A stretch of DNA of 64,000 nucleotides from Actinomycetota bacterium (GTDB lineage: Bacteria; Actinomycetota; Rubrobacteria; Rubrobacterales; Rubrobacteraceae): assembly GCA_902810695.1 (NCBI GenBank), contig CADDYV010000014.1:1-64000 (forward strand), read 5' to 3'. A program made the translations under genes and the position numbers. Shown here one piece after another: positions 8,739 to 51,676 of the stretch. The notes beneath the pieces were generated by a model, which did no database searches, was not told the origin of the DNA, and saw nothing but the letters and a program-made list of their open reading frames with translations. Position 1 is the first letter of the stretch, and every line of letters starts with the position of its first letter.

Positions 8739-9455
8739 CTACTCCATGTTGGCTTTGAGGGCCTCGGCGAGCTGGTAGACCGGGTCGAGCTTCCTGGGGT
8801 TCATCCGCTCCATGTACTCCACAAACTCCTCCTCCGAGGCGAAGTTCATCTTGGGATTGCCCTGCTTCTCCTCTCCCAGGGTCGAGTGTCTGCGGCCCTT
8901 GTAGTCGTGGCCAGGATAGATCAGCAGGTCGTCGGACAGGCTCCTGAAGGTGTAGTAGAGCGTGTGGTACTGCTGGGTCGCGTTGCCGTTCAGGAGATCG
9001 GTGCGCCCGCAGGAGCCGATCAAGAGCGCATCCCCCGTAAGTATCCTGTCGGGCAGGACTACGGAGATCAGGTCCTTGGCGTGCCCCGGCGTGTAGAGAA
9101 ACTTCAGCGGCAGCCCGCCCAGCCACAGCCTGTCTCCGTCCACGACGCGCAGGTCCACCCCGCTGGCGGGAGCCTTCTCATGCATGACGACTTTCGCCAC
9201 GGTCTTTTTCTTCAGCTCCCTCGCGCCCGAGATGTGATCCGCGTGGGTGTGGGTGTCGATGATGTAGGTGGGCTTCAGTCCATGCGCGAAGATGAAGTCC
9301 AGCATCGGCTCGACCATCTCGATCTCCGGGTCCACGATAGCGGCCAGCTTCGTTTCGGGATCAGCAACCAGATAACCCAGGCACCCGCGCGCGACCAGGA
9401 ACTGCTCGAAGATATATCCCGGCTCCGTTTCCTGTTTCTCTGGTTCGACCATCAT
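8739..9455 (-). CDS. ETHE1-like metallo-beta-lactamase (probable persulfide dioxygenase)
   Basis: A 238-residue cytosolic MBL-fold protein. The metal motif THTHADHISGA is at 68-78 (H69, H71, D73, H74); later come a TPGH motif, GSCGRTDLLNG and YPGHDYKGRRHSTLGEEK. The GRTD and DYKG/STLGEE segments are those of ETHE1-type persulfide dioxygenases, which oxidise glutathione or low-molecular-weight persulfides to sulfite, rather than of glyoxalase II. Start taken at ATG 9455 since AAGGAGAG lies just before it; the longer frame adds 21 unlike residues. It diverges from the epimerase gene across about 150 bases. The exact persulfide carrier is unknown. Confidence 0.78.
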   Translation of the reverse strand: MMVEPEKQETEPGYIFEQFLVARGCLGYLVADPETKLAAIVDPEIEMVEPMLDFIFAHGLKPTYIIDTHTHADHISGARELKKKTVAKVVMHEKAPASGVDLRVVDGDRLWLGGLPLKFLYTPGHAKDLISVVLPDRILTGDALLIGSCGRTDLLNGNATQQYHTLYYTFRSLSDDLLIYPGHDYKGRRHSTLGEEKQGNPKMNFASEEEFVEYMERMNPRKLDPVYQLAEALKANME

Positions 9456-47653: not shown

Positions 47654-47914
47654 TCAGGAGCCTTCCAGAAGTTCTCGGCGGACGTAGTCTCGCAAGGTGG
47701 AGACAGACATCTCCGGAGATCGGGGGACTTCGATAAAGCTGTGGCGACCGATGGCGTTCTCTTTGAGCCAGCTCTCTTCGACCGGCTTGGAGCTTTCGAG
47801 GTCGTAGCCGCTCTCGTAGTAGAGCGTTCTCAGTTCGCCAGAAGCAAGCTCGACTACCAGTATCGGGTAGCGCCCCGGAGAGTGGGCGCGCACTTTCACG
47901 TTGCTCTCAACCAT
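47654..47914 (-). CDS. small protein of unknown function
   Basis: An 86-residue soluble protein, not recognised. It begins VESNVKVRAHSPGRYPILVVELASGELRTLYYESGYDL, a small beta-sheet pattern, and ends in a helix (STLRDYVRRELLEG). No Cys, no membrane segment. ATG start, weak ribosome site. It faces pknB with eight bases between stops and may be transcribed from the 127-base gap before the coiled-coil MBL gene. Confidence 0.55.
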   Translation of the reverse strand: MVESNVKVRAHSPGRYPILVVELASGELRTLYYESGYDLESSKPVEESWLKENAIGRHSFIEVPRSPEMSVSTLRDYVRRELLEGS

Positions 47915-48041
47915 ACCCGGAGTCTATATGAAGATTGCCGGAAATAAAAGTTTTGCAGGAAAAAGAGCCAGAAGGGACCGTGATAGAATTTGAAATGTAT
48001 GAAAACTGCAAATGAAATTTACATGCACGGAGGAAATTTCC

Positions 48042-50513
48042 ATGTCAGATCCCATACCTCAAGATGGAGAAATTGAAGCAGCGGAAGAAAATACCCATGA
48101 AGATTCCACGAAGCGAAAACTACCGCCTGAAGGGCTGCCAGAGGAGCTGCTCCAGCGGCGGCTCGGACGGCTGGACACGAGAAGAGCCCTCGCCAACCTC
48201 TGTAAGAACGTTCCGGGGCTCGATGAGATCCTGCTGCCCCGCGGCATCCAGGCCGACGCCTTAACGCGCAAGTCCGGCGGCAGCACGCAGATGCTGCGCG
48301 GCATCTCGCGCAGAATCCTGCAGGATGAAACCGCCTGGGATGCCTTTCGAACGGCCATATCCGAGCAGATCCCACCGGAAACCTTCGAGGCGCTAAAGAA
48401 AATCTCCAGGGAAAATCTCGATGAGCTCACGGAAGCCTACAGCACGGAGGGGCTCTTGTTCGCCGCTCTGAGCGACGACGAGAATCCGGGCGAAGATGTT
48501 GTGGAAGCCCTCATCGAGACCTGGAAGGAAGAGAACCAGCAGGCCCAGAAGCAAGCCTCCAAAGACGCCCGCGTTAAGGAGCTTGAGAAGCAGCTCGAAG
48601 AACTCAAAAAAGAGAACGAGCAGCTTCAGTTCACCGCCCGCAGCGCCAACGAGCGGGCGGCGGCCCTGGGTGAGGAAGTTGAGGTCTTGCGCAAGGAACG
48701 CGAGAGCGCCGCGGCGCAGGTAAAGAAGGCCGAGGAACGCGCAGAAGCGGCTCTTGAGACTCAAAACCAGCTAAGCGCGCGGGCTGCTGAACTGCAACGA
48801 CGCAGCGTCCATCTGGAGCGAACGCTGGAGAGCGAACGAACGGCCTACAAGACTGCAGCCCAGCGCGTAGAGGAGCTTCACGAGGAACTCGGCCACATCG
48901 GCGAGGAGCGGGACAGGATCCAGGACGCTTTGCAGAACGCCCGTTTCACCGATCCTGGCTTCGGAGATCTGCTGGTCCGGGCGGTCAAAAACGAGGTCAG
49001 CGCGCTGCCCGATTCCCTCGACTCTGCGGCCAAGACCGCCCAACTGCTGGAATTTATGGGGAAGGTACTGCAGGCCCACTCGGAATTGCGCGAATCCCAT
49101 TTGCAGCATCCCAGAAGTAGCTCCCGTTCGCGGTCTGCGCGGGAGGAAGAGGAGGATTCGGATCCCTCTTTAGCTAGCAATGTCAACCTCAGAGAACACA
49201 ACGGCAGGCCGGCGGTTGAGGTACGAGCCCGGCCCCGGCCCACGCTCTCTTTCAAAGCCCTCGGAGGGGCTGGCGAAGTAGGTGGCAGCAGTCATCTGCT
49301 GGACTTCGGGCGCGCCAGGGTACTCGTAGACGCCGGAATAAAACCCGATGGGCATGGACCTGCGGCGCCGAGCTTCGGCAAGCTCGAAGGGATAGACGCC
49401 ACGGTCATAACGCACGCGCATCTGGACCACTGCGGGGCACTGCCGCTCCTGGTGCGGGACAATCCGAACCTGCCGATCTACTGCACGCCTCCTTCCGCCA
49501 GGCTCATCCTCTCGGCGCTCAACGATCACGCGGCGATGGGCGGCGGGTTGCCGGGAGGAGCCCCGATCCACGAGGTCAAAAAGAGGCTTACAACCGTGCC
49601 TTTCGGCAAACCCTTCAACATCGGAGGAGCCAGGATCACGCTGACCGAGAGCGGCCATATCCTCGGGGCGGCGAGCGTGCTGCTACAGTCGGAGTCGGCG
49701 ACGGTGTTTCACACCGGTGACATCTGCATGGAGGATCACTTCTCCATCCCCTCGGCGCGGCTGCCGAAGGTCAGAGACATAGATCTGCTCATCATGGAGG
49801 CCACCCTGGCCGACCGCAAGCCCCAGCCCTTCTCCGAGTCTATCCGGAAGATGGTCGAGGTCATCAACGAGACGACGCAGGAGAGGGAAGGAACGGTTCT
49901 CATCCCGACCTACGCCCTCGGCCAGGCGCAGGAGATCATACTCGGCCTCAAGCGTTACGGTGAGGAGTACGGGCTGGATCCCGACGTGTTCATCTACGTT
50001 GACGGCTCGGTCGTAACGACCTCCGAACGCCTGTATGCCGACCAACTCGGCTACATGAAGCCCTACCTGCAGCACACCGATCCCAAGGAACTGTTCTTCT
50101 CCGAGAACATCCGGGCGGTCGCAAACGATGACGGAGCGCGCGAGCGCATCCTCTCGAATCCGTGCGCGATCATCGCCTCACCGGTAACCATGCAGGGCGG
50201 AGCGAGCGCGTTCTACCGCAAGCGCCTGCAGAAGAGCCCGAAGAACGCCGTGATCCTGCCCTCCAACGCGGCTTCTTCCTACGGTACCCACCGGGCCGAG
50301 GGAGAGAAGGAGAACTGGCGCGTCGAGCGAGTGAGCTTCGCCGCGCACTGCACCCAGGATGAGCTCCTCAACATCACCGAGAAGCTGAACCCGCGCCAGA
50401 TCATCCTGATCCACGGCTCGAAGAGGCGCATAAGCGACCTCGCCTACCGTCTCTCCCCAAAGCACAAGATCCACACCCCCGCCGTCGGCGAGACGGTTCG
50501 CACCGTGCTCTAG
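48042..50513 (+). CDS. coiled-coil metallo-beta-lactamase/beta-CASP protein (putative RNA nuclease)
   Basis: An 823-residue protein. Residues 1-155 are helical (RRLGRLDTRRALANLCKNVP, ISRRILQDETAWDAF); about 160-300 form a long charged coiled coil (KELEKQLEELKKENEQL); 330-370 is a Ser/Arg/Glu linker. From about 400 comes an MBL domain, GGAGEVGGSSHLL, HAHLDH at 458-463, HTGDICMEDHF, with beta-CASP motifs IMEATLADRKPQPF, VLIPTYALGQAQE, ASPVTMQGG and ILIHGS. This is the CPSF73/RNase J-like nuclease arrangement, but the N-terminal half is not part of known families I recognise. ATG 48042 has GGAGGA eight bases before. A small winged-helix gene follows after two bases. Confidence 0.8.
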   Translation: MSDPIPQDGEIEAAEENTHEDSTKRKLPPEGLPEELLQRRLGRLDTRRALANLCKNVPGLDEILLPRGIQADALTRKSGGSTQMLRGISRRILQDETAWDAFRTAISEQIPPETFEALKKISRENLDELTEAYSTEGLLFAALSDDENPGEDVVEALIETWKEENQQAQKQASKDARVKELEKQLEELKKENEQLQFTARSANERAAALGEEVEVLRKERESAAAQVKKAEERAEAALETQNQLSARAAELQRRSVHLERTLESERTAYKTAAQRVEELHEELGHIGEERDRIQDALQNARFTDPGFGDLLVRAVKNEVSALPDSLDSAAKTAQLLEFMGKVLQAHSELRESHLQHPRSSSRSRSAREEEEDSDPSLASNVNLREHNGRPAVEVRARPRPTLSFKALGGAGEVGGSSHLLDFGRARVLVDAGIKPDGHGPAAPSFGKLEGIDATVITHAHLDHCGALPLLVRDNPNLPIYCTPPSARLILSALNDHAAMGGGLPGGAPIHEVKKRLTTVPFGKPFNIGGARITLTESGHILGAASVLLQSESATVFHTGDICMEDHFSIPSARLPKVRDIDLLIMEATLADRKPQPFSESIRKMVEVINETTQEREGTVLIPTYALGQAQEIILGLKRYGEEYGLDPDVFIYVDGSVVTTSERLYADQLGYMKPYLQHTDPKELFFSENIRAVANDDGARERILSNPCAIIASPVTMQGGASAFYRKRLQKSPKNAVILPSNAASSYGTHRAEGEKENWRVERVSFAAHCTQDELLNITEKLNPRQIILIHGSKRRISDLAYRLSPKHKIHTPAVGETVRTVL

Positions 50514-50515
50514 CA

Positions 50516-50836
50516 GTGGCCGCGGTGCTGCCGGAGGTTACGAGGCTCTACGACGCCAGGGGGGAGCGCCCGGAGAACGCCGCGGTCGCGGGCGGCATCT
50601 GGTACGAACCGGAGATCTGGACGCTCCCCCTCTCCCCCGCCGCCCGCGTGCTCTACGCGGGCCTCTGCTCATATCTGGGGCACGGCGAGATCAACCGCCA
50701 CGACCTGCGCAATACCCTCAAAGACTGCCCCGACGCGGAGATTGCCGCAGCTCTGGAGGAGCTAGCCAGCCACAGGCTGCTGCAGCCTGTTCCGCAGGGC
50801 TACGCGATACACTCCGTCAAAGAGTTCGAGAGCTAG
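50516..50836 (+). CDS. small winged-helix (DnaD-N-like) protein
   Basis: A 106-residue protein: GIWYEPEIWTLPLSPAARVLYAGLCSYLGHGEINRHDLRNTLKD and then EIAAALEELASHRLLQPVPQGYAIH, a winged helix-turn-helix of the phage/DnaD N-terminal type. No other domain. GTG start two bases after the coiled-coil MBL gene, so the two proteins are probably made together. It may bind nucleic acid for the nuclease-like partner; this is inference. Confidence 0.6.
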   Translation: MAAVLPEVTRLYDARGERPENAAVAGGIWYEPEIWTLPLSPAARVLYAGLCSYLGHGEINRHDLRNTLKDCPDAEIAAALEELASHRLLQPVPQGYAIHSVKEFES

Positions 50837-50854
50837 ATCGCGCCGTGCGCCTTG

Positions 50855-50860
50855 TATACT
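50855..50860 (+). promoter_or_regulatory. -10 box, leaderless start
   Basis: TATACT with six bases to ATG 50867. No room for a ribosome-binding site. Confidence 0.5.
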
Positions 50861-50866
50861 GCTTGT

Positions 50867-51676
50867 ATGAGGCCCATATGCTTCATATCGGACTACGGCC
50901 TCGCCGATGACCGGGTGGGCTCTTGCAAAGGTGTGATCGCAAGCATCGCGCCGCAAACTACTGTGATAGACCTGACCCACGGCATCTCCGGGTTCGACAT
51001 CACGCGGGGAGCGGAGATCCTCCGTAACGCGACGCGGTATATGCCCGAGGATACCGTGTACCTGGCCGTCATAGACCCGGGCCTGAAGAGCAAGAGGCAG
51101 GCGATCGCGATCCAGGCCCGCAGCGGCGCCCACCTGGTCGGCCCAGATAACGGCCTCCTTCTGCCGGCAGCCGGAGATCTCGGCGGCATCGAGCAGGCTG
51201 TGCATCTTACGAATCCCCGGTACCACATAACGCCCGTCTCCGACGCTTTCCAGGGACGAGACATCTTCTCATCGGTTGCGGCCCACCTGGCCGCCGGGGT
51301 GAGTCTCCGAGATCTCGGGGACGAGGTGGATCCAGCCTCGCTGGTCTCCACCAACTTCCCCGAAGCCCAACGGGCACCCGATGGCGGACTTACGGCGGAG
51401 ATAATAGATATAGATCGCTTCGGGAACGTCAGGCTCTCGGCGACGCAGAAAGATCTGGACCTCCAGTATGGCGCTCCCGTGGAGATCCGAGTCCGGGACG
51501 AAGTCATGGACGCGAGGTACGTAAGGACTTTTGGAGACTCGAAGCTAGGGGACCTGGTCGTGGTCCCGGACTCCCACTGGCGTCTTAGCCTCGCGATCAA
51601 CCAGGGAAACGCCGCCAGGGCGCTCCTGCTTTCGCTCAGGGACAGGGTTCGCGTGGATCCCGCCCCGACTCAGTAG
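50867..51676 (+). CDS. SAM hydroxide adenosyltransferase (DUF62 family)
   Basis: A 269-residue protein of the fluorinase/chlorinase-like family. CFISDYGLADDRVGSCKGVI, IDLTHGISGFDITRGAEIL, VYLAVIDPGLKSKRQAIAI and LVGPDNGLLLPA cover the SAM-binding N-terminal domain; a C-terminal beta barrel follows. Most bacterial members hydrolyse S-adenosylmethionine to adenosine and methionine rather than halogenate. Start set at ATG 50867 (the frame opens 15 bases earlier). Its 3' end overlaps the convergent phosphoesterase by seven bases. Confidence 0.85.
   Translation: MRPICFISDYGLADDRVGSCKGVIASIAPQTTVIDLTHGISGFDITRGAEILRNATRYMPEDTVYLAVIDPGLKSKRQAIAIQARSGAHLVGPDNGLLLPAAGDLGGIEQAVHLTNPRYHITPVSDAFQGRDIFSSVAAHLAAGVSLRDLGDEVDPASLVSTNFPEAQRAPDGGLTAEIIDIDRFGNVRLSATQKDLDLQYGAPVEIRVRDEVMDARYVRTFGDSKLGDLVVVPDSHWRLSLAINQGNAARALLLSLRDRVRVDPAPTQ

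Follow-up and report, generated by a model that had tools for sequence, protein, structure and literature searches.

A predicted CPSF-type beta-CASP nuclease with a helical head and a long coiled coil in Rubrobacteraceae

The CPSFcc locus and its neighbours

The window, by which we mean the whole 64,000-nucleotide stretch that was analysed, carries on its plus strand a gene (48042–50513) for an 823-aa protein that we call CPSFcc, a predicted CPSF-type beta-CASP nuclease with a coiled coil. The gene starts with an ATG at 48042 (MSDP...), a start kept in relatives, and its stop codon occupies 50511–50513. Upstream, on the minus strand, lies orf86 (47654–47914), which encodes 86 aa without a Pfam match. 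The two genes diverge from a 127-bp intergenic region (47915–48041) in which both strands carry conserved -10-like elements, the plus-strand element being TGATAGAAT at 47981–47989. Downstream of CPSFcc a small, putative winged-helix gene of 106 aa (wHTH; 50516–50836, plus strand) begins with a GTG at 50516, two bases past the CPSFcc stop. In the window this pair is followed directly by a SAM hydroxide adenosyltransferase-type gene (SAM_HAT_N/C) at 50852–51676.

When the neighbours were checked in 31 relative loci, as far as the flanks reach, we found the order ftsW, pbpA, pknB, orf86 (divergent), CPSFcc, wHTH where present, a 212-aa gene, an SDR gene and a flavoprotein gene. The exceptions were pbpA, unmatched in locus L064, and the 212-aa gene, unmatched in L041 and L045. 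orf86 was present at 30 of the 31 loci, the remaining locus beginning inside CPSFcc, and it was detected in 27/27 family genomes and 0/269 others. This small gene, absent from the earlier note on this DNA, is the constant neighbour of CPSFcc.

The 106-aa protein of the window gave no Pfam match, and HTH_36 (PF13730) was matched in 4 of 19 members of its family (best E 3.3e-4), which hints at a winged-helix protein. Nineteen loci gave a wHTH match, and 18 of them, all but L047, were aligned together with the window to represent this family. A small winged-helix gene two bases after the nuclease had been described earlier; the spacing holds firmly and the winged-helix nature tentatively. We found wHTH in 24/36 family genomes, the window's own included, and in a second, overlapping sample in 20/27 family genomes and 0/269 others. 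Of the 12 genomes lacking it, G006, G031 and G035 stop within the nuclease gene itself, and in G024 and G033 the contig ends no more than 350 bases from that gene. Since these five absences are contig ends, seven are informative, and they include two near-complete genomes, G004 and G016. When its presence was mapped onto a tree of 36 nuclease rows, of which 26 have wHTH, 8 lack it and 2 are of unknown state, at least three changes of label were needed. Thus wHTH appears to have been gained or lost at least three times while the nuclease stayed, which argues that it is a facultative neighbour and not an obligate partner. The nuclease was found in all 39 Rubrobacteraceae sampled, and wHTH as its constant partner is not supported.

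These data bear on the reading that CPSFcc is part of a regulated module, with the wHTH protein or orf86 as its obligate partner or regulator. The two-base spacing of wHTH, the divergent orf86 in all 27 family genomes and the conserved shared promoter region would fit such a module. However, the absences and changes of state of wHTH speak against it, and the neighbourhood of orf86 shows no interaction. We consider this reading unlikely.

Toxin-antitoxin cassettes were seen directly after the nuclease stop in three relatives (L039 8548–9015, L040 4327–4832 and L051 8528–9270). The L040 cassette encodes RelB-like and ParE proteins, over the Pfam cut-offs, and the L039 stretch is related by DNA similarity; the L051 cassette gave a weak RelB-like match and DUF5615. 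Past the L051 cassette (9304–9381) the last ~26 nuclease codons are repeated at 85% identity, as if the insertion had duplicated the 3' end. Separately, the nuclease frame at L065 (G004) is broken next to a C run near residues 149–153, possibly through an assembly error; in the sister genome G016 it is open.

A catalytic core of the CPSF type

The catalytic MBL/beta-CASP/RMMBL region of CPSFcc (residues 399–823, 49236–50510, plus strand) was delimited by Pfam and motif residues. Lactamase_B_2 (63.3 bits, cut-off 27), Beta-Casp (46.9 bits, cut-off 27.7) and RMMBL (37.4 bits, cut-off 21.6) were all matched between residues 411 and 810. For conservation we aligned 25 sequences, namely the window and 24 of the 31 relative loci, leaving out L047, a near copy of L049, and L050, L054 and L059–L062, which are cut at contig ends; a further, smaller alignment comprised 17 of the 25. 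D430, H458, H460, D462, H463, H539, D560, E586, H769 and H791, which we take to be the metal-site and beta-CASP motif positions, were invariant in 25/25 sequences. With these domains over their cut-offs and these residues intact, CPSFcc is classed as a CPSF-type member of the beta-CASP nucleases. This bears out the earlier call of a beta-CASP nuclease and adds that the protein is of the CPSF type and distinct from the genome's own RNase J gene.

Matches among PDB sequences were PH1404/FttA, TTHA0252, Cas14, CPSF73 and INTS11, all within residues 394–820, with E about 1e-37 for CPSF73 and INTS11. The alignment with two archaeal aCPSF1 structures extends at the C-terminus as far as their ETVR end, and H791 lies in an HG motif aligned to the HG motif of PH1404. 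In CPSF-73 the extra histidine His418 is reported to bind the second metal and to be absent from DNA-cutting MBL relatives (PMC8450076). We infer that H791 is probably the counterpart of this residue. In MTH1203 the C-terminal region is reported to make the dimer (PMC3095777).

The best NCBIfam profile was aCPSF1 (TIGR03675), at 195 bits against a cut-off of 580.2, and the alignment spans profile positions 177–629 only, with the KH part unmatched. The Cas14 profile (NF045584) reached 154 bits against a cut-off of 800, and the RNase J profile (TIGR00649) 42.8 bits against 400. By these profiles CPSFcc is placed outside aCPSF1, RNase J and Cas14, sharing an MBL/beta-CASP core with the Cas14 of type VII CRISPR and the beta-CASP superfamily with RNase J. 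Judged from sequence, then, the core of CPSFcc is typical of an established enzyme group.

In a catalytic tree of 35 rows, which has one aCPSF1 row and three RNase J rows and lacks CPSF73, TTHA0252 and Cas14, the eight Rubrobacter proteins are monophyletic (100/100) and sit at the end of a long branch (1.19). This clade falls inside the CPSF-type side, and a branch of 3.01 (100/100) lies between it and the three RNase J rows. As its sister, the tree does not resolve between a clade of Deinococcus, cyanobacteria and Herpetosiphon and a second group that holds aCPSF1 along with further bacterial proteins.

Genes for RNase J, RNase Y and Rho were all found in the same genome, and RNase E/G gave no match there. 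CPSFcc would thus be an additional RNase. We rejected a role as a replacement for RNase E, as RNase Y and RNase J are present although RNase E/G is unmatched. An FttA-like role by necessity, for want of Rho, was likewise rejected, as Rho is present. On one contig (G000:C49:4707-13072) the RNase Y gene is found ~5–6 kb from the RNase J-like gene.

CPSFcc could still be a bacterial counterpart of FttA/aCPSF1, cleaving nascent RNA at RNA polymerase and so promoting termination, with head and coil replacing the KH domains. It shares with the archaeal enzyme the MBL/beta-CASP/RMMBL core, the ETVR end and an extra module before the core, and aCPSF1 is its best NCBIfam profile. FttA is reported to be a dimeric MBL/beta-CASP RNase set at the RNA exit by Spt5 (PMC11616081). 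In contrast, CPSFcc has a helical head and a 149-residue coil where aCPSF1/FttA has KH domains, its 195 bits are far below 580, the genome encodes Rho, and the tree does not group CPSFcc with its one aCPSF1 row. We therefore regard a direct FttA counterpart as quite improbable.

The N-terminal arm and its spread

Some 400 residues had been reported to precede the MBL domain, and in the model we saw a helical head, a long helix, a hairpin and a low-confidence linker there. The full AlphaFold2 model, from 25 sequences, was poor (pLDDT 60.3, pTM 0.38). Its helices comprise the head (34–144), a single helix (151–298) and two further helices (305–320 and 326–351), with low confidence at residues 348–401. 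The head modelled alone (residues 28–166) gave a pLDDT of 79.1 and a pTM of 0.73. From conservation, this head-only model and library searches the head domain is placed at residues 28–150 (48123–48491, plus strand); conservation and the model place a conserved helical hairpin at residues 300–352 (48939–49097, plus strand). Mean column identity among the 25 sequences was 0.88 at residues 28–80, 0.60 at 81–97, 0.88 at 98–115, 0.68 at 116–165, 0.67–0.76 in the coil, 0.82 at 300–345, 0.52 in the linker and 0.87–0.91 in the core. Parts of the head thus match the enzyme in conservation.

The coiled coil occupies residues 151–299 (48492–48938, plus strand), as seen from the model, a heptad score and a length count. 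Across residues 160–300 the heptad score, a crude home-made measure and not a trained coiled-coil predictor, was 3.80 against 1.84 +/- 0.27 in 500 composition-preserving shuffles (z 7.2), and none of the 500 equalled it. Seven of the 24 relatives were tried and gave z values from 5.1 to 7.4. The long coiled coil of ~140 residues noticed earlier is borne out by this score together with the model helix. Of 34 sequences compared, 33 have a coil of 149 residues and the remaining one has a coil of 145. The linker (residues 353–398, 49098–49235, plus strand), predicted to be disordered from a pLDDT below 50, varied from 32 to 101 residues among the same number of sequences. Coil length is kept and linker length is not. 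Low indel rates are common in coiled coils and alone are no proof of a ruler. With a helix rise of 1.5 angstrom per residue, 148 residues would make a rod of ~22 nm if they form one straight helix.

Coiled coils usually oligomerise, and CPSFcc may be an autonomous RNase whose head and coil merely oligomerise or autoinhibit it, with no outside partner. The flexible linker would permit folding back, as autoinhibition would need. However, residues 28–80 of the head are as conserved as the core, which goes beyond the need of an oligomerisation cap, and we consider this reading rather unlikely. The head could nevertheless be regulatory or structural, partnerless beyond the dimer.

The earlier note had also suggested tethering through the coil. 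In RNase Y the coiled coil follows a membrane anchor, and tethering of CPSFcc to membrane or chromosome in that style would fit a coiled coil adjoining the nuclease and the ftsW, pbpA and pknB genes nearby in relatives. RNase Y-like nucleases have an N-terminal transmembrane segment, whereas no such segment was found in residues 1–398 of CPSFcc, where the highest 19-residue Kyte-Doolittle mean is only 0.46. A membrane tether through a transmembrane segment is thus not supported. For the chromosome, the head matched no DNA-binding family over the Pfam cut-offs, and neighbourhood alone is no proof of location. Tethering of either kind seems very unlikely. Net charge is -5 for the head and -10 for the coil. 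Such an acidic arm makes a protein partner likelier than RNA or DNA and disfavours RNA binding by the arm.

Relatives of the N-terminal region were searched for in several libraries. Neither the window nor the 25 head sequences matched a Pfam family over the cut-off in this region; the weak matches were to Symplekin_C (E 0.028) and, in 7 of the 25, DUF4351 (best E 0.0059), and no KH family was among the matches of the head sequences. NCBIfam gave no match over the cut-off and PDB sequences none (best E 0.38). Fold searches with the head reached a Foldseek E of 3.7 and a VIA Z of 3.6 at best in the PDB, and a Foldseek E of 4.9 in BFVD. Matches to HOOK, SMC, Rad50 and JetC fell mostly on the coil and were taken as coiled-coil cross-matches. 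A defence system was set aside, PADLOC having given these coil matches only and the locus being fixed in relatives. KfrA proteins are reported to be head-plus-coil DNA binders (PMC7821693); a KfrA-like role was considered, and KfrA is not among the Pfam matches of CPSFcc or the head sequences. The earlier note's proposal turned on the N-terminal region having no characterised relative, and such a match was looked for in Pfam, NCBIfam and the PDB and was not found. Literature searches found no paper on a beta-CASP or metallo-beta-lactamase protein with a coiled coil in Rubrobacter, nor on Rubrobacter ribonucleases or RNase J. Among the titles and abstract openings listed for beta-CASP coiled-coil or N-terminal extensions in bacteria, the layout is not described.

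A head profile matched 39 of 396 Actinomycetota genomes sampled: 39/39 Rubrobacteraceae, the window's own included, and 0/357 others. The catalytic profile (E 1e-20) matched the same 39 and, outside the family, 15 genomes out of 357. Of these 15 genomes 13 were examined, and 12 had open frames of 467–572 aa; a 1247-aa frame in G205 (L147), a candidate for a further long extension, was judged an antisense frame of GC-rich DNA. In a contig scan with CPSFcc 31 of 58 pattern stretches were relatives, titled Rubrobacteraceae, Rubrobacter or Actinobacteria/Actinomycetota, and the head was found in 0 of 4 viral contigs; both scans detect close relatives only, distant heads in other phyla being beyond their reach.

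Among plasmids, tblastn found relatives in Deinococcus (34% identity), Herpetosiphon, Nostoc and Crinalium and in haloarchaeal aCPSF1, and none of the 262 records covers 80% of the CPSFcc query. These bacterial plasmid proteins share the core, as does Thermus TTHA0252, with up to 34% identity, and in none of the plasmid relatives was the head found. TTHA0252 starts at the MBL domain, whereas CPSFcc has ~400 residues first. The Nostoc and Crinalium proteins (L139 2323–4545 and L142 2263–4731) carry other N-terminal extensions, of 226 and 246 residues, without a Pfam match. Archaeal aCPSF1/FttA has KH domains N-terminal of the core (PMC3095777; PMC11616081). Taken with the cyanobacterial proteins, this indicates that N-terminal extensions recur in the CPSF-type group, and the general rule given earlier, by which RNase J and CPSF-type proteins begin with their MBL domain, does not hold. 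In CPSF73/INTS11, which share the core, the extra part is C-terminal (PMC11616081), and in CPSFcc it is N-terminal. The arm of head, rod and linker is a lineage-specific addition with no known relative in the libraries searched.

A proposed role for CPSFcc

We favour, with a probability of roughly 0.55, the reading that CPSFcc is a zinc RNase, probably a homodimer, with its head and fixed-length coil as a cytosolic arm that recruits it to a protein partner. The enzyme would belong to the CPSF-type (aCPSF1/CPSF73-like) branch and depend on zinc to cut RNA, and two chains would pair as a homodimer. The helical head would bind the partner, the rigid rod of ~22 nm would fix the distance to it, and the flexible linker would let the core reach RNA close to the partner. 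RNA as the substrate, the dimer and recruitment through the head are what we infer from these comparisons. CPSFcc would work alongside RNase J and RNase Y, not instead of them.

A bolder version can be offered as speculation. CPSFcc might be a fixed-distance CPSF/FttA-like factor in the ftsW-pbpA-pknB region, acting at RNA polymerase, the ribosome or the degradosome as a bacterial 3'-end or co-transcriptional cutter without KH domains; we hold this to be improbable. In archaea and eukaryotes, CPSF-type nucleases generate the 3' ends of RNA, and to our knowledge little is known of the role of their bacterial relatives. If true, it would mean that bacterial CPSF-like RNA processing has been built without KH domains, on a 22-nm rod and an orphan head.

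Rubrobacter is a lineage of soil bacteria. CPSFcc is kept by all Rubrobacteraceae sampled, beside separate RNase J and RNase Y, and parts of its lineage-specific head are as conserved as the enzyme. The partner of CPSFcc would reveal how a bacterium steers a nuclease of this type.
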